A program made the translations under genes and the position numbers. 21,803 bases of DNA, taken from IMG/VR virus record IMGVR_UViG_3300034198_005697, positions 1 to 21,803 of that record; one strand, written 5' to 3'. Source of the DNA: a virus. Shown here one piece after another: positions 2,364 through 21,431 of the stretch. The notes below the pieces were generated by a model. It saw nothing but the letters and a program-made list of their open reading frames with translations. It had not been told where the DNA came from and searched no databases. Position 1 is the first letter of the stretch, and every line of letters starts with the position of its first letter.

Positions 2364-3212
2364 ATGAGTGAAAGCGTACCAATTTCTTCCAATTCGTGGA
2401 GTCCGCCGTTGAATGGCAATGAATCAGTATATCCATTCAACAGTGTACATAAAAGTCGGTCTGGTCATATTCATGAAATTGATGATACGCTTGGTGCGGA
2501 ACGCATTCATCGCCAGCACAAAAGCGGAACGGCCGAAACATTTGATGCAACCGGAAGTCGTACCCTAACAATACTTGGAGATGACTGGATAACCATTGTG
2601 AAGGATGGTCATCTTTACATTGGCGGAAAAGCCTCAATCACAATCATGGGCGACTGTCAAACGACCGTTGAAGGAAATTATAATCTGCGTGTAAAAAACG
2701 ATTTTAATGTTGAAGTCGGCGGTAAGATGCGAACTAAAGTTAATGGTGGCGGCGCATCGTATGACATTGTAGGCGATGTTGGTTGGAACATTTCTCAAAA
2801 TGCCATAAGCGTTATTCACGGTAGCAGTGATCGTAAATGTATGGGTGGAGAATCAACCGTAATCGGTAAAGATAGTAAAACTGTAATATCAGGCGACTGC
2901 AGTTCAATGGTTAGTGGCAATACAGTCGCTGTTACCAACGGTAAAGCCATGAATGTGTCGTCTGGTGCTATGACAATCGGCGCAGGAGCGGGCATGCAAA
3001 TCGGTTCGGGATCGAGCATCACAATCAATGCTCCTGGCAACCTTAACTTAGAAGCTGGAAACTTAACGGTCGCAGACAATGTAAATGTTGACGGACAAAC
3101 ATCCGTTAAAGGAATCATCACATCTGACACTGACGTGTTATCTCAAAGCGTTTCACTGATTAGTCATGTTCATGTTGAGACTGGAGAAATTACATTACCA
3201 CCAACGCAATAA
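2364..3212 (+). CDS. Baseplate central spike, gp5 C-terminal beta-helix type
   Basis: The 282-aa protein resembles the C-terminal needle of gp5 and VgrG, here as a free-standing gene. Residues about 24-60 (YPFNSVHKSRSGHIHEIDD followed by GAERIHRQHKSG) match the entry segment seen in gp5-type spikes of T4-like cyanophages. After that come short alternating beta strands with frequent Gly/Asp turns (TILGDDWITIVKDGHLYIGG, then TTVEGNYNLRVKNDFNVEVGG and similar), the pattern of a trimeric intertwined beta-helix. The C-terminus carries an HVH motif (His268 and His270) followed by a Pro-containing tail. That recalls the HxH metal site at the spike tip of P2 gpV-like proteins; metal binding here is an inference. 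No PAAR protein is visible nearby. The gene follows the OB/CHAP gene by 14 nt and shares one base (TAATG) with the next. Confidence 0.85.
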   Translation: MSESVPISSNSWSPPLNGNESVYPFNSVHKSRSGHIHEIDDTLGAERIHRQHKSGTAETFDATGSRTLTILGDDWITIVKDGHLYIGGKASITIMGDCQTTVEGNYNLRVKNDFNVEVGGKMRTKVNGGGASYDIVGDVGWNISQNAISVIHGSSDRKCMGGESTVIGKDSKTVISGDCSSMVSGNTVAVTNGKAMNVSSGAMTIGAGAGMQIGSGSSITINAPGNLNLEAGNLTVADNVNVDGQTSVKGIITSDTDVLSQSVSLISHVHVETGEITLPPTQ

Positions 3213-4735
3213 TGCCTACACTATCTTCATTACAAGAATCTTTGCAAACCGTGCTACCTAAGCCTGGCACGACGGTACCGCCGCAAGCTGGTACAATATT
3301 AGATCCAAGTTCATTGCGATATGTAAGCAATCCAAATACTGCAATGTCGTTTGATAATGTTAATGGTATTGCTGCAGGTTTGAGTGCAACTGGGATACCA
3401 ATAAACTTAGGTCCAGCACTTAACCTTATTGATTGCGCTCAAAATCTAGAAGATAGACTAATTGCAAAAGTTCAAGAAAAAGCAATCGAATATATCATGG
3501 CAAATGATAAAGCCGCAGATATACTAAAACTTGTTGCGGTTATACCGACTTATATCAATGCAGCTAATCAAATCATAGACGTCATAAAGTCGACCAAGTC
3601 AGAAGATCTGATTATGGCTTTGCTAGCAGCTAAAGCGTTAAGCGGTTTAGAACGTGCAACCAAAATTAACGAAATCCTGACTAAGTTTGGTAGCAGTGTA
3701 AATAATATAGTTGACCTGATTCGGCAGTTAGATGTACTTGATATATGCAGTGTGCCAAATTATAATGCAAACGGTACACCGGCAGCTGCTATGATGCAAA
3801 CTCCAACTGCACCTGCAACCGCTAGTCCAATTACATATCCTGCGGCTAGCATAGATCATAATCAAATACAAATTAAAAATGATTATGATGGCGCTATGGG
3901 TGAAATAAAAGCGCAAACCTCTAAAGATCCGCTTAAGGCTGACAGCGGTGGTTATTCTAGCATGATCACATCAATCAACACGATTGCAATGGCTTATCAT
4001 GATAAGCTACTCAAGTCAACCACAAGCATTGACAATCCAAGATTTTATTCGGAGTTTAAAACTAGCGTTGGCATAGAACAAAATACGCACGGATCACAAT
4101 GGGACGAGGCAACCAAAAGTGATTATACTACACGATGCGATCAACTAGGATATGCTATCAATAAAAATGCAGACATTATACGAGCTTATGGTATGAGAAA
4201 TAACGCTGGTCCTATAAGCGGATCATTGCTATCAAAAGGAGTGACTGTTTATAGTCCACCAGACGGCGACTTCACGACATTCCTTGATCTTAAACCGAGT
4301 GCACGTACGCCAGAATTAACTGCGCTATGGACAAGTCGTGGTTACAATATACAATCTCAGGAAGCTAAATTAAATTCTCGTGGCATTAAGACTGGAACAT
4401 TAAATATGAGCGATACTGTAACAGGTGCTATGGGTGATGCACTGATTTCGGATTTCTCATGCGCATCGACGCGAGTACCGATTGGTAGTGTCTTGGCATT
4501 AAAGAATGCAGATGGATCTCCTTATAACCCAATTGGTGCTAACCCGAATGGTGTTTATACCGTGCATGATACTGGAAATGCAAAGTTGACATATAACAAG
4601 GTCGACATCTTTACACGTTCGCCTAAGCAATATACAAATATGGACGGCGTTCAAGTTTATCTTGTATCCACAGGAACTAAGTATTCATCACAATATAGAA
4701 TAGCTCAAAGTAAATACGGTAATGGGCAGGTATAA
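3212..4735 (+). CDS. Baseplate-associated protein with C-terminal 3D/double-psi-barrel domain
   Basis: The 507-aa protein has an Ala-rich, mostly helical N-terminal half (about residues 60-175, e.g. NLEDRLIAKVQEKAIEYIM) and a linker rich in Ala, Pro and Thr near 185-215. Residues about 395-492 look like a 3D-type double-psi beta-barrel as in MltA-like lytic transglycosylases. The visible elements are SDFSCASTRVPIGSVLAL (Asp414), GVYTVHDTGNAKL (Asp453) and NKVDIFT (Asp465), then GVQVYLV. The DTGN...VD pairing is the family's acidic signature. If active, it would cleave glycan strands between MurNAc and GlcNAc. Its place between the spike and gp25 genes suggests a virion wall hydrolase complementing the CHAP domain. 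It has no signal peptide, as expected for a virion part. I recognise no specific T4 homologue; the N-terminal half is unassigned. The enzymatic call is moderate. Confidence 0.6.
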   Translation: MPTLSSLQESLQTVLPKPGTTVPPQAGTILDPSSLRYVSNPNTAMSFDNVNGIAAGLSATGIPINLGPALNLIDCAQNLEDRLIAKVQEKAIEYIMANDKAADILKLVAVIPTYINAANQIIDVIKSTKSEDLIMALLAAKALSGLERATKINEILTKFGSSVNNIVDLIRQLDVLDICSVPNYNANGTPAAAMMQTPTAPATASPITYPAASIDHNQIQIKNDYDGAMGEIKAQTSKDPLKADSGGYSSMITSINTIAMAYHDKLLKSTTSIDNPRFYSEFKTSVGIEQNTHGSQWDEATKSDYTTRCDQLGYAINKNADIIRAYGMRNNAGPISGSLLSKGVTVYSPPDGDFTTFLDLKPSARTPELTALWTSRGYNIQSQEAKLNSRGIKTGTLNMSDTVTGAMGDALISDFSCASTRVPIGSVLALKNADGSPYNPIGANPNGVYTVHDTGNAKLTYNKVDIFTRSPKQYTNMDGVQVYLVSTGTKYSSQYRIAQSKYGNGQV

Positions 4736-4738
4736 ATA
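4731..4738 (+). promoter_or_regulatory. Putative T4-type late promoter -10 element (TATAAATA)
   Basis: A perfect TATAAATA octamer; its internal TAA (4733-4735) is also the stop codon of the 507-aa protein. The gp25 ATG follows after 7 nt. T4-type spacing would place the mRNA start two bases before the ATG. It would head a gp25-gp6-gp7 unit. Confidence 0.65.
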
Positions 4739-4745
4739 GCATAGA

Positions 4746-5204
4746 ATGAATAGTATTCTTTCAGATTACAATCGCCCTGGCTATACACCAAGTGTAACTC
4801 AGACAATTAGATATGCCGATTTGGATTGGTCTTTGCGTGTTTTATACTACGATGACAAACAAGGGAATACTATCAAGGGTGACATCATACCACTTACTGA
4901 CATTGATGCCGTTAAGAATTCAATACGCAACTTAGTATTAACTTCGGTATTTGAACGACCGTTTGAACCTAGCTTATCATCACGCATACGTTCTTTGCTA
5001 TTTGAGAATGTGAATCCGATTACTGCGTTGAGTCTTAAAGAAGAGATTGACACGGTCATTCGCAAATATGAACCACGCGTAGCTGAAGTATATACGTCAA
5101 TCACAGATGATTCATCCAACAATGCATACTTTGTATCAGTAAGTTTTTCAATCAGCAATCACAATCCTGAAATCATAGAATTTATAATCAACCGCTTAAG
5201 ATAA
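4746..5204 (+). CDS. gp25: Baseplate wedge protein gp25
   Basis: The 152-aa protein belongs to the GPW/gp25 family, a small sheath-initiator-like wedge protein that joins the baseplate core to the contractile sheath. The conserved segments are present. The family's IRNLVLT helix at about 59-65 precedes the EPR-type core loop. The loop begins with SVFERPFEPSLSSRIRSLLF at about 67-87, then NPITALSLKEEI, then a YEPRVAEV stretch near residues 112-119. The length is close to T4 gp25 (132 aa). The start is the only ATG before the conserved region and follows a late-promoter octamer. The stop overlaps the gp6 start in TAATG, so the two wedge proteins are probably translationally coupled. Confidence is high from the motif and its position before gp6. 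Confidence 0.93.
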   Translation: MNSILSDYNRPGYTPSVTQTIRYADLDWSLRVLYYDDKQGNTIKGDIIPLTDIDAVKNSIRNLVLTSVFERPFEPSLSSRIRSLLFENVNPITALSLKEEIDTVIRKYEPRVAEVYTSITDDSSNNAYFVSVSFSISNHNPEIIEFIINRLR

Positions 5205-7120
5205 TGGCAGATAAACTTAATATAACCGAATTGGATTATCAGAAAATCAAAGATAATCTTATTTCGTATTTTCAGAATGTAAAAGATGATAGCGGAAATG
5301 TAGTTTACAAAGACTATGATTTTAAAGGCAGTGCTCTTAATACTTTGATTGGTATACTTGCATACAATACTCATTATAATGCAATGTTAGCGCATATGGC
5401 TGTTAACGAAAGTTTCATTGACAGCGCACAATTGCGAAGCAGCGTGGTATCGGCCGCAAAACTATTAGGATATGTTCCAAAGAGTTCAACCGCTGGCACG
5501 ACAAGTCTTAACATTTCGTTTACTCGAAACAATACTCAAACGACTCCATCATCAATATACCTTGATAAGAATAGTATCTTTAAGACTACTTGGAATAATA
5601 CTGGATTTTACTTTGTATTAAAGGACGGTGTTTCACTTTCAGCTGCTTCCGAAACGCCAACTGTTTATACTGCAACCAATGTTGAGGTCATTGAAGGCCA
5701 GCGCGTCTACAAAAGATTTCAAGTCAACGGTGTTGATGATGCCGAAAAATATGTTATTGATGACGACGATATTGATATAAGCACTTTAGTCGTTCGTGTC
5801 TATAGCAACGCGAGTAACCTTGCCAATCCTAGTGTATATTCTCGCTATAGCGATGTTACTCAAATGGCATCTGATGCTAACTTGTATTACTTGGCAGAAA
5901 ATATGCTTGGGCGATATGAAATTAGTTTCGGCAATGGGATCATTAGTAAAAAGCTTTCGCCTTTGAATATCATTGAGGTAGAATATGTTGTTACAAACGG
6001 TTCGGCTTCGAATGGCGCGCTTGGTACATTTACTCTTGTTAGCACAAATTCTGATATTTCAAACTATACCTCTGGAAATTCCATAACAGCTCTTAGTGCT
6101 GTTGCTGGAGGAAGTTATCGTGAAAACGTCGAAAGTGTTCGTTCTAATGCTACTGCTAATTTTGTAAGTCAAAATCGTGCTGTTACTGCCGATGACTATA
6201 ACAACATCATTATGGCAAACTTTCCTGGTGCACAAAGCGTCAGCGTCTGGGGAGGCGAAAACAATGACCCACCAGAATATGGAAAAGTTTTCATATCAGT
6301 TGAAAAGACAAGCGATTCCCAACTGTCAACTGAACCTCAGTTAAACTCGACCGATCGTCAGTTGATTACAAACTTACTAAACGGCAAAAAGGTTCTTTCA
6401 ATCATTCCAGAAATTGTAGATGCACAGTATGTTAATATTGTATTGGACGTGTTGTTTAAATATAACAGCAACTTAATTGCATCTACTCAAGCCGATTTTG
6501 AAAATAAGATTCGCACGCAAGTCATTGCCGATTACAATGACAAGTATCTAAATGGATTTGGTAAAATATTCCGTCATTCTCATTTTACCAAAACTGTCGA
6601 CAATTATTCATCGGGTATATTAAATTCTCATGTTCGAGTTTTTGTATCAAAATCATTTGACATCAATCCAGATTCATATGATGAATTGGTTCTTAAGTAT
6701 GGATGTGAACTAACAGTTGATGATAATAAAGCAGTTGCAGCATATAATACAAATTCACTTTGGACACTCAATGATGAGCAACTATATATTGCCGATCGTG
6801 CAAATACAAATGACTCAGATCAAAGAATATTGTATACCTATGTAAAGTACAGTGATGGTTCTACACTGGTCATTAACAATAACATTGGTTCCATTACTTT
6901 ATCGACTGGCATATTACGCATCAACCCGCTTGGTATTGCAGACAGTCCGTTTAAATTAACCGTTGACCTTATTCCAATATCAGATGACATTGTATCCAGA
7001 AGAAACCAACTTATACGCATCAACACATCACGTTGTGATGTTCAAGGATATGTTGATGAAGTTGAAGTCGGGGGCCTAAGTCGTTCAATTACATATCAAA
7101 CATTTAAACGCGACAGATAA
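5204..7120 (+). CDS. gp6: Baseplate wedge protein gp6 (baseplate J-like)
   Basis: The 638-aa protein is the main wedge component; in T4, gp6 (660 aa) dimers form the inner baseplate ring together with gp25, gp53 and gp7. Visible markers are FKGSALNTLIGILAYNTHYN near residue 43 and a helical AHMAVNESFIDSAQLRSSV segment. A baseplate-J signature GRYEISFGNGIISKKLSPLN lies near 240-260, followed by VEYVVTNGSASNG. FVSQNRAVTADDYNNIIM and FPGAQSVSVWGGENN lie at about 322-355. The C-terminal third is beta-rich and less conserved. It shares a base with gp25 upstream and with the gp7-like gene downstream (TAATG at both ends), so gp25, gp6 and gp7 are translated as a tight trio. Confidence 0.93.
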   Translation: MADKLNITELDYQKIKDNLISYFQNVKDDSGNVVYKDYDFKGSALNTLIGILAYNTHYNAMLAHMAVNESFIDSAQLRSSVVSAAKLLGYVPKSSTAGTTSLNISFTRNNTQTTPSSIYLDKNSIFKTTWNNTGFYFVLKDGVSLSAASETPTVYTATNVEVIEGQRVYKRFQVNGVDDAEKYVIDDDDIDISTLVVRVYSNASNLANPSVYSRYSDVTQMASDANLYYLAENMLGRYEISFGNGIISKKLSPLNIIEVEYVVTNGSASNGALGTFTLVSTNSDISNYTSGNSITALSAVAGGSYRENVESVRSNATANFVSQNRAVTADDYNNIIMANFPGAQSVSVWGGENNDPPEYGKVFISVEKTSDSQLSTEPQLNSTDRQLITNLLNGKKVLSIIPEIVDAQYVNIVLDVLFKYNSNLIASTQADFENKIRTQVIADYNDKYLNGFGKIFRHSHFTKTVDNYSSGILNSHVRVFVSKSFDINPDSYDELVLKYGCELTVDDNKAVAAYNTNSLWTLNDEQLYIADRANTNDSDQRILYTYVKYSDGSTLVINNNIGSITLSTGILRINPLGIADSPFKLTVDLIPISDDIVSRRNQLIRINTSRCDVQGYVDEVEVGGLSRSITYQTFKRDR

Positions 7121-8301
7121 TGTCTATCAGTATAGCATCAGCACCAACTTCAGTGATTAGTGAACCTAGTCGTTCTGAAGTATTATTTCCGTCGTATGTT
7201 CGAGACGGTGGTTTTGAAATAGTACGTCTAATAAAGTCATATTATGATTATCTTAATGAAGAAGGAATGCCTTCTCATGAGATAAACAATATGATTGCCA
7301 ATCATGACATTGATGTTGTATCTGACAAGTACCTTAGTGCCATTCAGCTTGAGGTTGCTAAATCTGTTCCAGAAAGTACCGTCTTAGACAAGCGTCGATT
7401 GTATAAGATAGTCTCGCAATATTATAAGACGCGTGGATCCGAACAAAGCGTTAATGGATTCTTCCGTATTTTCTTTGATGAAATGGTTTCGGTTTTTTAT
7501 CCATCATCGCAGCTGTTTAATACATCTGGAGATAAGTCACAATCATCATCTCAATTTGTTATACAAGACGGTGACTATTGGCAAAAGTATTCTTATGAAA
7601 TTAAAACTAAGCATGATGCAACTGCATGGAAAAATCCATTCATAAAGTTCGTTCATCCGGCCGGTCTTAAGTTATTCATTACGATCCTTGCAATCATGTA
7701 TGTTGATAATACATGGGAAGGACCGCTAGAAGATTACATTGATTCGCTACAGTCAATTACCGCTGAGGAATATTGGAAGAACATAAACTTAGATATGTTG
7801 ATCGGTCGACACAGTCCTAAGTTTCAGCCAGGAACAAGTTATACTCTTGACTATCTTTTCAAGGCAATTATAGATTCCGAATATCATTACCGCACGCAGA
7901 CCTATCCTATTAATGGTGTAGCAGCTTCAAATTTATATGCCAGTCTGCTTTCAGTCTTTATAGACCTGTTGCTAATAATTGATGCTAACATTTCAGTATT
8001 TAGATCTGACTATCAAGAATGGCTTAAGTTCTACGATGCCGCATCAATATCTAGTTATGCAGATAAAACCATAGCTGATGCAAGTGCCGATTATGATCCG
8101 GTTAACGCCTGTCGTTTTGAATCATTGGGTACTGACGCAATAGTATATAAAAACAACGAGGAAAGCTATGGTGATGTTGTGGATATTGGATCTCAGACCA
8201 ACTGGACGAGTTCTTACTTTACATCTGGCGATGATAGCGTCCCAGATATTCCAGTGTATATTCCAGGATATGCTCCAGAACTATTGGAATCAGTGATATA
8301 A
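7120..8301 (+). CDS. gp7: Baseplate wedge protein, short gp7-like
   Basis: The 393-aa protein lines up with the C-terminal part of T4 gp7 (1032 aa), as far as I can compare from memory. It has an N-terminal helical region (VRLIKSYYDYLNEEGMP) and the motif DKRRLYKIVSQYYKTRGSEQ at about 91-110. Then comes FFRIFFDEMVSVFYPSSQ, matching the T4 order of 'dkRdavarff...YstKGieasykflFkvLy'. An IKFVHPAGLKLFITILAIMY stretch near 176-195 matches T4's RFVHPVGFGF segment. In T4, gp7 clamps the gp6 dimer and gp10 into the wedge. The roughly 600 N-terminal residues of T4 gp7 have no counterpart here, so only the gp6-clamping portion seems kept. Its position between gp6 and gp8 is exactly that of gene 7 in T4. 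It has no methionine alternative upstream because the start is fused to the gp6 stop. Confidence 0.75.
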   Translation: MSISIASAPTSVISEPSRSEVLFPSYVRDGGFEIVRLIKSYYDYLNEEGMPSHEINNMIANHDIDVVSDKYLSAIQLEVAKSVPESTVLDKRRLYKIVSQYYKTRGSEQSVNGFFRIFFDEMVSVFYPSSQLFNTSGDKSQSSSQFVIQDGDYWQKYSYEIKTKHDATAWKNPFIKFVHPAGLKLFITILAIMYVDNTWEGPLEDYIDSLQSITAEEYWKNINLDMLIGRHSPKFQPGTSYTLDYLFKAIIDSEYHYRTQTYPINGVAASNLYASLLSVFIDLLLIIDANISVFRSDYQEWLKFYDAASISSYADKTIADASADYDPVNACRFESLGTDAIVYKNNEESYGDVVDIGSQTNWTSSYFTSGDDSVPDIPVYIPGYAPELLESVI

Positions 8302-14989: not shown

Positions 14990-15220
14990 ATGCAAAGTGT
15001 ATCGCTTATACCTGTAGGTGAGCATTACGGTTTACATCGTGATGCTCACTCAAATGCCATCATAAACACCGATGATGTTGCATACCAAAACGTCTTGCGC
15101 CAACGCGAAAATCGAAGAAAAAATCGAGAAGAACTTGATGATATGAAATGCAAAATAGAAGCGCTGATGGAAAGATGCGCAAAATTAGAACGTGAAGTAA
15201 ATATCCTGAACAACCGATAA
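14990..15220 (+). CDS. Small coiled-coil protein, 76 aa
   Basis: I recognise no family. The N-terminal 35 residues are polar and possibly extended (IPVGEHYGLHRDAHSNAII). The charged C-terminal half, about residues 38-75, fits a coiled coil. Hydrophobic positions spaced as heptads are visible in LDDMKCKIEALMERCAKLER, with two cysteines. The gene starts 3 nt after the stop of the DUF4815-like gene and ends 15 nt before the RCC1 fibre gene. It is probably co-transcribed with the former. A small trimeric or dimeric adaptor between baseplate and fibre, or a fibre chaperone, would fit; both are guesses. The ORF is supported by position, strand and composition. Confidence 0.7.
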   Translation: MQSVSLIPVGEHYGLHRDAHSNAIINTDDVAYQNVLRQRENRRKNREELDDMKCKIEALMERCAKLEREVNILNNR

Positions 15221-15226
15221 TAAATA
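15219..15226 (+). promoter_or_regulatory. Putative T4-type late promoter -10 element (AATAAATA)
   Basis: One mismatch to TATAAATA; it overlaps the TAA stop (15218-15220) of the coiled-coil gene. The RCC1 fibre ATG follows after 9 nt. It would head a separate transcript for that fibre, with a leader of about 4 nt under T4 geometry. Confidence 0.45.
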
Positions 15227-15235
15227 GACTTAAAT

Positions 15236-17935
15236 ATGGAATTAGTAAATATCACTGATACGTTTGAAACATGGCGTCAAAAGACAAATGATTTGGTTAC
15301 CGAGGTGTCATCTTTTAGCAGCACATATGCACTAAAAAATAATACACTGTTACTTGATGCATCTGCACAGTCAGTTAACGGAGTTAAGACATTTGAAAAT
15401 GGTATAGTCCTAGGTGTTAATGGCGCAGTTGTTACATACAATTCTCAAGGTGGATATGTATCCTTTGTCAATGACATTGTTGTCAATGGACGAAATGTTA
15501 CTGCACTAAAGTTTAACAACACTGGATCTACGCTTGCGATTAACGGTTTAACATATACCTTTCCAAGTGTAAACACAAATGGGTACTTGTATAATACTGC
15601 AGGGATTATATCATTTGCATCATCCGATCAGATGGTAAACGACGCATTGAGTGCGTTTGCTCAAAATCTTACTTTAACAGAAAATGTAATTCCAGTTGGT
15701 ACAATCGTTCCATTCAAAGGCGCTCCAACCGATATGGCATCATTATGGTTGAAGTGTGATGGTTCGACCATTCCAGCTGGGAGTGTCTATGATGCGCTTC
15801 GCACGGCTCTGGGTACAACAACGGTTCCCAATTTAATTGGTAAAAGTTTAATTGGTAAAAACGGATCAAATGATTTGTTAGGCGACATTAATACTGCGAC
15901 CGATAACGATGAATACCTTCCAGTTGATTTTTACATTAAAGCTAAGCCTGGAAATATTGGAACATTTTCACTGATATCTTCTAACGGTATTACCTTAACA
16001 CCAACTGGAGGAAGCCCTGGTGGTACAATAGGTTTTGGAGGTGGTTCGATTGCTCTAAAAGTTGGCTCAGAGTTTTCATTCAATGGTGGAGCATTGCAAT
16101 TGGCATCCGCAAGCATTGAAAATAGTAAATTAAAAAATGCATCCTCATCAGCCGCTGTTAGTACAGTTGCATTGCGAAACGCGTCTGGACAATTAAAAGC
16201 AGCTGATATCGGCCCGGGCGATACCGATTCGACTCTTGTGGTCAATAAGAAGTATGCGGATTCTTTAGTTGATGCTAAAGAACATAAATTCAAAGGTATC
16301 AACGCAAAAGGATTTGCTTCATACAATGTTCAGCCATACAAAGGTATAACATGCCTCGATGTTGACAATAATGTTTTTGTTTACGGCCGAAATACAACTG
16401 ACTACGGGCGTCGTTTTGGTCGATATGATGGTGATGCTTATGGCCATGCTCTATCAGGACGACGTGCTTCACCCGTGGATAAAGTTTATTGTGATACCCA
16501 CAATACATACGTGTTATGGGAAGATGGTATAGTATATTCTCATGGATATAATACCAATCGTAAAACGGGTTCAACCTCTGCTTCAGTAACAGCTGATTAT
16601 GTTAATGGTCCTAGACTAGCATTTAATGGTGAAGCTATTCAAGAAGTCATTTTAAGTTATGATAATGATCCTGGGAATTCAAATGCTGGATCCGTTTATG
16701 CACTTACCACGTCTGGAGAACTATGGGCTGCTGGCGATAATACATACGGTCAGCTTGGAGATGGTACAACCAGTGATACATCCACAGTCAAGATTCCATT
16801 TAAGACTGACGTTAAAGGTAAAGTGGTAACAAAGGCATGGTTAATTGGCGGCAATAAAACTCAGACAGGTTATGCACTAACTAACGATGGCCAACTATGG
16901 GCATGTGGTTATGGACAATATGGGCAAATTGGGCGTTTTACTCCATCTACATCGTCTACTCCTGCCGCGATTAACTCTAAATGGGTACCAGTATTAAATG
17001 CGGTTTACGATCGAACAATTGGAGCCGTAACACGCAGTGGAACGACATATACTAAAAATTCACACGGTTTGTCCGAATATGATAAAATTTTATCTGATAA
17101 TAAGTATTATACCGTTAATGTAGTCAATACCAATCAATTCAAATTATGCACCGACGATAGTTTAGGCACAAATGTTTCAATAACACTATTATCAACCGAT
17201 AAAGTATATACTAGAGTTTCAGGCGTAAAAGATGTAGCGCCTGGCGGACGAGGTAATGAAACATTTGCAATCATAGTATTTACTAGCGGAACCGTTAAAG
17301 TCATTGGTCGTAATAAGTATGGGCAGCTTGGAGTAGATGGAAGTAATATATATGCATCTACTGCAATTAGTATTACTAATATTGCATCCGCCTATACTGG
17401 ATTAGATTACTGCGTTCATTTGGTAACAAATAGTGGTAAGCTATATGCTGCAGGAGATAACCGATATGGATTGTTGGGAATTAATTCTTCAGACAGTAGT
17501 AAATCAGTATTTACTATAATCAGTTCAGACGATCTTAGCGATAGTAACTTGTCAAACCCAAGTGCATATGAAGTATATCGCTTCTTTAGCGTTGGTGGTC
17601 CAGGTGACCGTACTTCCCGCTTCTGCATATTCAAGAGTGGCACTGACTATAAACTAGCTGCATGGGGTAGTGCTAAATGGGATAACCTAGGAACTGACAG
17701 CGATGCAGATTTTCATGGAAAACCACAAAACGTCTATATCGGTAAAAATAAGGATGTCGTTCAAGTCACGTCATGCGAACTTAATGATGACGGAGCTGTT
17801 GCCACGCTGATATTAACTCAGGATGAAGGTCATGATTACGGTAATCTATATGTTTGCGGTTATCAATATTTCAACTTTAATTCTTATCCAAATGGTGCGC
17901 GCGTACCATACTTTACTCAAGTTAAAAATGTATAA
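15236..17935 (+). CDS. Tail fibre with tail-collar domain and RCC1-like beta-propeller
   Basis: The 899-aa protein is a multi-domain adhesin. The N-terminus ([17 protein letters not shown]) resembles the attachment end of fibres in T4-like cyanophages. Residues about 155-205 form a phage tail-collar domain: [27 protein letters not shown] and [11 protein letters not shown] Gly/Ser-rich region and a [18 protein letters not shown] segment (about 335-360) follow. From about 370 to the end there are seven or eight RCC1-like repeats, the clearest being [51 protein letters not shown] and [16 protein letters not shown]. Seven blades would make one closed propeller. An extra segment at about 595-645 ([10 protein letters not shown]...NTNQFKLC) interrupts the propeller. 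The role is inferred: host-surface binding through the propeller. The collar domain in the middle rather than at the tip is unusual compared with T4 gp12. Confidence 0.85.
16340..17880 (+). repeat. RCC1-like propeller repeats (7-8 blades)
   Basis: Protein-level repeats with the RCC1 core pattern 'G.ly.wG.N.yGQLG'. Eight candidates lie near residues 371, 416, 487, 546, 681, 727, 797 and 859. The third to sixth are strong; the first two and last two are degenerate (e.g. [28 protein letters not shown]). The first and last could pair to close the ring. DNA identity between repeats is low, so the array is old. Boundaries are approximate. Confidence 0.75.
17020..17160 (+). other. 'HGLS' beta-domain inserted within the RCC1 propeller
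   Basis: Residues about 595-642 contain [20 protein letters not shown] and then [14 protein letters not shown]. This pattern (NSHGL..yD.i...Y.V..vntnqFkL) recurs in unrelated phage tail proteins as a small beta-barrel-like module. It sits in the long gap between the fourth and fifth propeller repeats. Boundaries are approximate. Confidence 0.5.
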
Positions 17936-17943: not shown

Positions 17944-20637
17944 ATGTCGTCCACACCGATCCCAAGTAGATTAGTTCATAAACACACTGGTGTTGCTGGA
18001 GCAACACCGACAACATCATATCTTGAATATGGTGAACTTCTGATCAACCATGCAGACGGAAAACTGTTTTATAAAACGGTAGGTGCGAGTGGTGTTCCTA
18101 CCATACAATTCATTTCAAACGGTTCATCCGGAAGCGGTGAACTCATTACTGGTGTAGCAGTAGTTAGTGGAAAGTTAGCGGTATATACATCTTTGGGGAA
18201 TACTTACACCACATCACAAGATGTTATTGGACCGGCCGGTCCTCAAGGTGCACTTGGTTTAACTGGAGCAACTGGTCCGCGAGGTGCTACTGGCGCTGCA
18301 GCCAATGCGCTTAATCTTAAAGGATATGTTACGTCGCTACCTAGTAGCGGACAATCCGTAGGAGATGTTTATATTGTAAGCAGCACTGGTCATGCATGGG
18401 CATGGATCTATAACAGCGTTCCAGCTTTAGTTTGGGTTGACCTGGGAACATTTCAAGGTCCAGCTGGATCGAATGGTGCGACTGGTGCAACTGGAGTTGG
18501 CGCAACCGGTGTCGCTGGAGCTACTGGATCTGCTGGTGCAACGGGAATTCAAGGAGCAACTGGACCGATCGGTGCATCTGGTATAGCTGGCCCTCAAGGA
18601 CCTACCGGTATTCAGGGAGCGACAGGACCAACCGGTTCAACCGGATCTTCTGGGCCAACTGGGCCAACTGGGCCAACTGGGCCAACCGGTTCAACTGGCT
18701 CGACTGGTTCAACAGGTTCTTCGGGACCGTCTGGCCCGACTGGACCAACCGGTTCAACAGGTTCTTCTGGGCCAACTGGACCGCATGGTGCATCTGGTGT
18801 TCCAGGCGCAACTGGAATAAGCGTTCAAGAAGTACAAGTTACTTATGACGGTGACATGTATATCAAGTTTACCAACGATGATGTTGTTTTTGTTGGTAAT
18901 ATAACAGGTCCACAAGGAGAAGCTGGAAATTCAGTGAACCTTAAAGGCACAGCTGCAACTGTGGGAGCACTCCCGTCAACAGGCAACACTCAAGGCGATA
19001 TGTGGATAGTTTCCGCAGACAGTCATTGTTATGTCTGGAATGGCGCACTGCCTTGGAAAGATGTAGGACTGTTACAAGGACCGGCTGGTGCTAGCGGTGC
19101 TACAGGTCCACGTGGATATTATGGACCGCAAGGATCAACTGGGGCCACTGGACCAACAGGTATTCAGGGATCAACTGGTCCACGCGGAACTCAAGGTAAT
19201 GTTGGACCTAGTGGAGCGACTGGTCCTAGCGGCGCAACTGGTCCTAGCGGAACAACGGCATTTGCTGGTCTGACTGATAAAACCACAGCCGATCTGCCAA
19301 ATATCAACGTGCCGCTGAGAGCTGAGCTCAATACATTGACAACTGAAGCGGAAGCAGTATCCGCAATGGGTGATGCGTTAATACGATCACTAAAGTCTGT
19401 ATGGCCAAGCAACGCTGGAACTTTTCTATTCTCTACAACAAAATCAACTGCTGGAGTAATATATGTTATTACTTCGACCGGATATGCAAGATTGATAAAT
19501 TCCGATGGTACACTTGGTGCACAGGTTGGAACTGGAGATCCAATTAGCACTATTACTTTAACAATTCCAAGCGGTGGTATACATAGACCTCTTGGCGTGC
19601 TATCCGTTGCCAACGGTGGATCTGTTAGAAGTGGCGATATTATTTACATCGTTGCAAATGGACAAAACATCACTGCAGTTTCTGTTGCAGGTTTAAGCAG
19701 CTTAGAATTACTAGGTTTAGACAACAATAGATTGACCAGTTTCTCTGGAAATGGTCTGACGGGTTTAACAAACCTTACCTTAAGCAATAATGCTTTACTG
19801 ACATTTTCCTCGGGAGAAAGTTTGGATAATTTGGTTAATCTTATCCTTGATAATAATGCATTGACCAGTTTTTCCGAAAATGGTTTAAGCGTCTTAGAAA
19901 CTCTAAGCATAACTGAAAATGAACTAACTAGTTTTTCTATAACGGGTTCTTCTACTCTGATCGAACTAAACTTAAGTTATAATGCTTTGACAACATTCTC
20001 TGGAACAGGATTATCAAATTTGGGAACACTTTATCTTGAGAATAATAGATTGACCAGTTTCTCTGGAACAGGATTATCTAATTTGCAATATCTTTTATTA
20101 AATAATAATCAGTTAACTACATTTTCTGGAGTTGGATTTGGTAATTTGAGTGAACTACATCTAAATAACAATTTACTAGAAAGTTTTAGTGGAACAGGAT
20201 TAGGAAACCTGCTTGTTATGGACGCATCGCATAACTTGTTACCTAACTTAAATGCAGCTGCATTAACTAACATTGAAACTTTAATTTTAAGTTATAATGC
20301 GCTAACGTCTTTTGCAACAAGTGGATTATCAAATTTGGGAACACTCATTTTGTCTAATAATCAATTAACTAGTCTTTCGGTATCCAGCTTAACTGTTCTG
20401 GGAAATGTTGATGTTAGTTATAATAACATTTCTTCATTTTCAATGGCAGGATTGGATTATCTGTTACAAATAACCATTGATCATAACCCAACTATGAATG
20501 TTGATAATGCTATTAACTCTATTTCATCCGGTCAGGACGAAGGTACCTTAGTTGCTGATAATAGAGTAACCAGTGCTTCTCAAACCAAACGCAATGACTT
20601 AAATATAAATCATGGCTGGTCGATAATATTAGTATAA
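17944..20637 (+). CDS. Collagen-like tail fibre with C-terminal leucine-rich repeats
   Basis: The 897-aa protein is a chimera of phage fibre and LRR. Residues 1-60 form an attachment-type domain ([19 protein letters not shown]). Gly-X-Y collagen-like segments lie at about 96-118, 172-292, 322-328 and 379-438, rich in GATGPTGS triplets and expected to form trimeric stalks. Two copies of a roughly 50-residue domain interrupt them (about 121-171 and 330-378; NLKG...GD.(Y/W)IVS...W.DLG). A short beta segment lies at 293-321. Residues 439-583 are a beta-rich neck. Residues 584-857 are 13 repeats of 21 residues (one has 22) with the consensus [21 protein letters not shown], a bacterial internalin/BspA-like pattern. 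A 40-residue tail with NHGWSIILV ends the protein. The distal LRR is inferred to be the receptor-binding tip. The start is fixed by the octamer and the conserved N-terminus. Confidence 0.9.
18652..18687 (+). repeat. 9-nt tandem repeat in collagen-like region
   Basis: Three identical consecutive copies of GGGCCAACT followed by GGGCCAACC, encoding Gly-Pro-Thr triplets. The surrounding 18600-18790 region holds further GGTTCAACT/GGTTCAACA-type near repeats. In-frame slippage here would change stalk length without breaking the gene. Confidence 0.85.
19693..20514 (+). repeat. Leucine-rich repeat array, 13 units
   Basis: Thirteen units of 63 nt (the second is 66 nt) encode 21-residue LRRs, residues 584-857. 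Some units are close to identical at DNA level: a 23-nt block (ggattatcaaatttgggaac plus act) occurs in the sixth unit near 20007 and again in the eleventh near 20322. Leucine codons are mostly TTA/TTG. Unit nine ([13 protein letters not shown]) and the last unit (IDHNPTMNV) are degenerate. Confidence 0.9.
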
Positions 20638-21086: not shown

Positions 21087-21431
21087 ATGGCACAATACAC
21101 TGACATCATTATAGATCAAGGATCAACCTATTCTGGTAAGATACCTGTGATTGGATCCAATAAGCTAGCCGTCGATCTTACTGGATATTCGGCGCGTGGG
21201 CAAATCAGACGTTCATATCAATCTCTGACATCAATCAGTTTTTCCACCAGCATTGATGATCCAACTAGTGGTGTGATTTTTATTAATCTTACGCCGGCTC
21301 AAACTGGTGCTCTTAAAGCTGGACGTTATGTATTTGATGTTGAAATTTACAACACATCTGGGACTGATGTCATTCGTGTATGTGAAGGACAAGCTGAAGT
21401 GACTCCGCGTGCAACTAAACCTTCTGTATAA
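21087..21431 (+). CDS. Small beta-sandwich-like tail protein, 114 aa
   Basis: The protein appears all-beta: YTDIIIDQGSTYSGKIPV, VDLTGYSARGQIRRSY, SGVIFINLTPAQTGALKAG, RYVFDVEIYNTSGTDVIRV and EGQAEVTPRAT. The pattern 'idqGsTy...DLtGysargqiR...G.i...Lt..qT..l..GrYvfDveiy...G...r..eG...vtp..T' is shared with small proteins next to collagen-like fibres in diverse phages. It also recalls the N-terminal domain of BppU-type baseplate-to-receptor linkers. It is likely a virion adaptor for the fibre that follows (inference). The gene has its own late-promoter octamer and precedes the collagen-like fibre by 9 nt. Confidence 0.75.
   Translation: MAQYTDIIIDQGSTYSGKIPVIGSNKLAVDLTGYSARGQIRRSYQSLTSISFSTSIDDPTSGVIFINLTPAQTGALKAGRYVFDVEIYNTSGTDVIRVCEGQAEVTPRATKPSV

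Follow-up and report, generated by a model that had tools for sequence, protein, structure and literature searches.

A T4-like collar tail fibre in which an RCC1-type propeller appears to stand in for the gp12-like head

Analysis of a lone 21.8-kb fragment of an uncultured T4-like bacterial virus from IMG/VR (record IMGVR_UViG_3300034198_005697; its whole 21,803 nt are called here the window) revealed a single intact ORF in which an N-terminal fibre anchor and a collar are followed by C-terminal RCC1-type repeats (Table 1); a collar with RCC1-like repeats after it had already been proposed for positions 15,236–17,935 in the initial annotation. The gene probably encodes a baseplate-attached fibre of a T4-like myovirus whose gp12-like head was replaced by an eight-unit RCC1 propeller for host recognition. 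We infer a fibre in which the N-terminus, with the motif DTFxxWxxxTN, would anchor the protein to the baseplate near VrlC and would be followed by a short shaft and the collar; the gp12-like receptor-binding head would have been cut down to a short loop, and its role would pass to the C-terminal propeller of eight RCC1-type units, which would lie distally in the virion and recognise the host by binding a surface protein or glycan.

Table 1. Features of the fibre locus and their positions in the window.
Feature	Position	Strand	Evidence or remarks
VrlC/DUF4815 baseplate-region gene, 1725 aa	9809..14986	+	Pfam DUF4815, 4.6e-47; phage homologues
ORF of 76 aa in the VrlC/fibre interval	14990..15220	+	Homologues right after VrlC in Melnitz-3 and pf16; phrog_473, virion structural protein
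T4-type late-promoter-like box AATAAATA	15219..15226	+	9 nt 5′ of the fibre start codon
NATAAATA boxes	2350, 4731, 8297, 15219, 17931, 21073	+	
Chimeric tail-fibre gene, 899 aa	15236..17935	+	Single intact ORF; Pfam RCC1 and Collar
Anchor motif DTFxxWxxxTN, N-terminal (residues 1–24)	15236..15307	+	Degenerate motif scan
Beta-rich shaft, anchor to collar (residues 25–147)	15308..15676	+	Aligns with T4-like collar fibres L271, L282, L288 and L327
Phage tail collar domain (residues 155–200)	15698..15835	+	Pfam Collar; phrog_14307; BLAST to L282
Short stretch (residues 201–226)	15836..15913	+	Relatives have an HxH head of ca. 115 residues here
Post-collar strand and second shaft (residues 227–364)	15914..16327	+	Residues 227–306 align with L271
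RCC1-type units 1–4 (residues 365–589)	16328..17002	+	Repeat profile; eight-unit family profile
Insert of ca. 78 residues at the boundary of units 4 and 5 (residues 590–667)	17003..17236	+	
RCC1-type units 5–8 (residues 668–899)	17237..17932	+	Repeat profile; C-half profile
Second fibre, collagen then leucine-rich repeats (C-terminal)	17944..20637	+	Pfam
Candidate tail-fibre assembly protein, 3′ of both fibres	21087..21431	+	phrog_3304, L-shaped tail fiber protein assembly, E = 3.9e-21

The window contains a T4-like baseplate operon, with gp25-, gp6-, gp7- and gp8-like genes and the 1725-aa VrlC/DUF4815 gene; the nearest named relatives of its gp6, with ca. 32% identity, are from Pelagibacter phage Mosig, Methylophilales phage Melnitz and cyanophages, and searches with peptide patterns in IMG/VR confirmed no close relative of VrlC. 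The motif DTFxxWxxxTN occupies residues 8–18 of the window fibre. A degenerate DNA scan for this motif retrieved at least 120 contigs, with 123 occurrences among the matches listed, 87 of them at the N-terminus of a protein; the exact anchor peptide pattern had no match, and contigs were obtained only with the looser pattern. VrlC was present on 79 of the 120 motif contigs listed, and in 78 the motif was downstream of it on the same strand, often separated by 232–309 nt (ca. 270 nt in the window); in two other sets of loci VrlC appeared in 2 of 120 and 1 of 80. As judged from gene order, the window fibre gene occupies the usual fibre slot behind VrlC. This synteny, the anchor motif and the homology to collar fibres described below bear out the original identification of the product as a fibre.

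The late-promoter-like box preceding the fibre gene belongs to a series of NATAAATA boxes, six on the plus strand and none on the minus strand of the window, each of which ends 5–23 nt before a start codon. Almost no start codon in the window has a Shine-Dalgarno sequence, and the late mRNAs may have little or no leader.

Residues 8–207 of the window fibre align with T4-like collar fibres, namely L282 (BLAST E = 1e-10), L327 and L271. The Pfam Collar match at residues 155–200 (E = 3.4e-4, 20.9 bits) is under the cut-off of 24, yet the collar call is secure because of the extended alignment to L282, and the collar domain that had been annotated before the repeats is thereby confirmed. The collar fibres L271, L282, L288 and L327, of which L271, L288 and L327 are shown 3′ of VrlC, share with the window fibre the anchor motif, the shaft and the collar. 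They differ from it in what follows, because they lack RCC1 repeats and have, after the collar, a gp12-type head bearing an HxH motif and then a closing strand with the pattern QPYxxxxYxIK. The window fibre instead passes from the collar through a short linker to the equivalent of this strand, from residue 227, with ca. 16 residues in the head region versus ca. 115 in the relatives, and the HxH motif is absent from its entire 899 aa. Residues 227–306 match the post-head stretch of L271 (phmmer conditional E = 5e-6), and none of 1000 shuffles was as good; phrog_14307 is matched by both L271 and the window fibre, and L271 has further matches to short tail fibre families. The second shaft continues to residue 364, with a motif NKKYADSL near its end. 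From this order of collar, linker and post-head strand, the head looks collapsed, with the propeller appended further on. The fibre therefore seems to have lost a gp12-like head and gained an RCC1-type propeller, a reading drawn from distant alignments (ca. 26–27% identity) to a few metagenomic fibres. The initial annotation was thus right in placing the RCC1 repeats after the collar, but the propeller appears to replace the head and not simply to come after the collar.

The RCC1 repeats are matched in the window fibre by Pfam models RCC1 (PF00415; E = 4.6e-18, 66 bits against a cut-off of 21.7) and RCC1_2 (PF13540; E = 4.3e-14, 52.3 bits against a cut-off of 22), and the whole-domain model WD40_RLD (PF25390) scores 112 bits, under its own cut-off of 150. 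With a repeat profile derived from phage RCC1 proteins, residues 365–899 scored 95.9 bits and residues 1–364 only 2.7 bits; among 2,000 shuffled copies, of which 1,232 scored at all, the best reached 8.7 bits, so that neither chance nor low complexity accounts for the repeats.

Seven to eight repeats had been claimed, and we read eight hairpin units, separated into two groups of four (residues 365–419, 420–480, 481–542 and 543–589; and 668–722, 723–790, 791–846 and 847–899) by the insert, which had been overlooked. Units 1 to 6 are each significant, with 0–1 of 500 shuffles as good, while unit 7 is marginal (18 of 500) and unit 8 is not significant alone (307 of 500). We nevertheless read eight because units 6–8 jointly fit the family's C-terminal half, the profile of which covers residues 719–896 with a conditional E of 1.8e-8. 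The eight-unit family profile matched residues 414–709 with a conditional E of 5.6e-34. Likewise, eight units can be counted by eye in the alignments of the insert-free relatives L185, L187, L048, the L193 group, SeaP4 and PollyC. The classical RCC1 fold, as in human RCC1, has seven blades, and a broad sample of phage RCC1 proteins is dominated by repeat numbers divisible by seven, mostly 7 or 14, from which the eight-unit group stands apart.

For the insert (residues 590–667) we found neither a Pfam match nor a relative, and AlphaFold assigned most of it a pLDDT of ca. 26–35. Its resemblance by eye to an FCCH-like beta module (HGL...YYTV...NxFxL) was discarded, with no Pfam match and no support from a home-made profile. 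We also rejected a degenerate extra blade: MAFFT aligns the insert with unit 5 of the relatives, yet this leaves the last unit without a counterpart. The sequence appears better described as eight units and an insert, with an uncertain register of units 5–8 with respect to the relatives because the repeats may slip by one.

An AlphaFold2 model of residues 365–899, built with 29 relatives, had a pLDDT of 60 and a pTM of 0.58; it was confident in the middle units and weak at units 1 and 8 and in the insert. All 50 PDB matches listed by Foldseek for this model were RCC1-type propellers (UVR8, HERC2, RCC1), the best of them UVR8 with E = 2.4e-17. The eight-unit family member L193, which has a better alignment, gave a pLDDT of 79 and a pTM of 0.85, with its strands in about eight blade-like groups; its top PDB matches were again UVR8, HERC2 and RCC1 (best E = 6.7e-25), and those in a viral structure library included the Littlefix and PollyC fibres. 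Against seven-bladed structures L193 reached TM-scores of ca. 0.6–0.7 of target length with 5–8 Å rmsd, which is what a ring with another number of blades could give. The models thus show a predicted propeller-type fold for the middle of the window fibre and for L193, and the units of the window fibre may close into an eight-bladed ring. The propeller originally assigned to this region is in this way upheld by the repeat sequence, by the partly confident model of the fibre itself and by the confident one of L193. The window fibre resembles the RCC1/BLIP-II superfamily (PF00415, PF13540, PF25390) in repeat motif, fold and best PDB matches; unlike classical, seven-bladed RCC1, it has eight units, a 78-residue insert and a position at the end of a phage fibre.

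RCC1 tips also exist on other fibre anchors. PollyC and Ppr_SeaP1-4, which are T7-like, and gp88 of Littlefix (Schitoviridae) have a C-terminal RCC1-type domain on a fibre anchor, as does the window fibre; they differ from it in belonging to other virus families, with a T7-like or schitovirus anchor, no insert and no collar found, and their tips are distant, partial relatives of the window tip (27–34% over parts). Residues 1–300 of the fibres of the Pseudomonas phages SeaP1-4 and PollyC are 96–100% identical, whereas their RCC1 tips fall into two classes with identities as low as 34–37%, SeaP1 and SeaP4 having one class and SeaP2 and SeaP3 the other. Additionally, one tail protein of Littlefix, a schitovirus isolated on the host strain of PollyC, ends in a tip 35% identical to that of PollyC. 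Receptor-binding domains are typically recognised by such a combination, a constant anchor joined to a tip that varies and is shared horizontally; the pattern in these phages therefore supports an adhesin role, and homologous RCC1 tips appear to behave like receptor-binding tips. By analogy, the window propeller is probably an adhesin that holds on to host cells in a different manner. N-termini of tail-fibre or baseplate type are also present in many other RCC1 proteins. With the anchor of the window, however, the search for further collar-RCC1 fusions in phages yielded no second example, RCC1 repeats being absent from all 87 proteins with an N-terminal anchor motif among the matches listed. 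At locus L185 (positions 2459–7182), three genes in a row code for short fibres, all of them ending in an eight-unit RCC1 tip, and each outer protein is ca. 51% identical to the middle one.

The second fibre gene, immediately downstream, had been described as ending in leucine-rich repeats, and its Pfam matches agree (Collagen, 6.8e-25; LRR_4, 2.3e-18; LRR_8, 2.5e-16). Its presence suits an explanation in which this collagen/LRR fibre performs recognition and the RCC1 domain does not bind the receptor but serves structure or decoration, as a spacer, a whisker or a joint; many phage RCC1 proteins are indeed stand-alone, of ca. 380 aa and arranged as tandem copies, as if structural. We consider a structural role rather unlikely, because the RCC1 domain is C-terminal, where the tip of a fibre is expected, its presence coincides with the loss of the gp12-like head and homologous tips diversify on a constant anchor. 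Much less probable still is an artefact of assembly, by which a collar fibre would have been joined to an unrelated RCC1 gene that belongs to a different phage or to a cell. The fusion is known from one contig, and neither peptide patterns in IMG/VR nor phage records yielded a close relative of the whole 899-aa fibre; nevertheless, the reading frame is continuous, the second shaft links the collar to the propeller in frame, the same kind of late-promoter box precedes both the fibre gene and the next gene, and comparable tips are found on the anchors of PollyC, SeaP1-4 and Littlefix.

RCC1 proteins are common in phages, with at least 120 stretches of IMG/VR matched by a degenerate pattern, and papers dealing with them present them as DNA-condensation proteins or as virion components to which no role is given. 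They were detected by mass spectrometry in virions of phages W70 (PMC11370258) and GAP32 (PMC5259590), and another paper counts them with the small number of proteins that diverge strongly between two near-identical jumbo phages (PMC13070987). The proteins from jumbo and vequinta-like phages (W70_237-239, GAP32 gp1 and those of phAPEC6) share RCC1-type repeats with the window fibre and, unlike it, are mostly of ca. 380 aa, without anchor or collar. For phAPEC6, its authors proposed that RCC1 orders DNA in the head (PMC7247149), and phrog_4219, phrog_7220 and phrog_16766 are filed under DNA, RNA and nucleotide metabolism, both in keeping with a phage RCC1 domain that organises DNA, as in chromosome condensation. 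We find this scarcely credible, since the repeats of the window are fused to a fibre anchor and a collar in the fibre slot and the phAPEC6 argument derives only from eukaryotic RCC1. Moreover, phrog_4219 also spans the T7-like tail-fibre N-terminus of PollyC (E = 1.4e-255), so its category is uninformative, and the three PHROGs are likely misfiled.

Returning to a propeller for host recognition, we give about even chances to a broader proposition, that eight-unit RCC1-type propellers are widespread and unrecognised host-recognition heads of phages, which occur on the fibres of T4-like phages, T7-like phages and schitoviruses alike and can substitute for gp12-type heads. RCC1 tips on fibres were already present in sequence records, although we found no description of RCC1 as a fibre tip in open-licence papers; as far as these searches show, what is new is a gp12-type collar fibre with its head swapped for an eight-unit RCC1 domain. 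The fusion to a fibre anchor in the fibre slot and the evolution of variable tips on a constant anchor in five cultured Pseudomonas phages make the adhesin hypothesis directly testable. If it is true, a large annotated group should be refiled under host recognition instead of DNA metabolism, and RCC1 tips should count as receptor-binding domains in the prediction of host range.

The gene for the candidate tail-fibre assembly protein (Table 1) has relatives in 22 of the 120 anchor-motif contigs listed. Among 110 genes located beside RCC1 genes in IMG/VR, counted without a matched background and hence given no weight as evidence, tail fibre and baseplate families were among the commonest; sulfotransferases accounted for 15 of these 110 neighbours, and are perhaps a surface- or fibre-modifying partner of RCC1 proteins.
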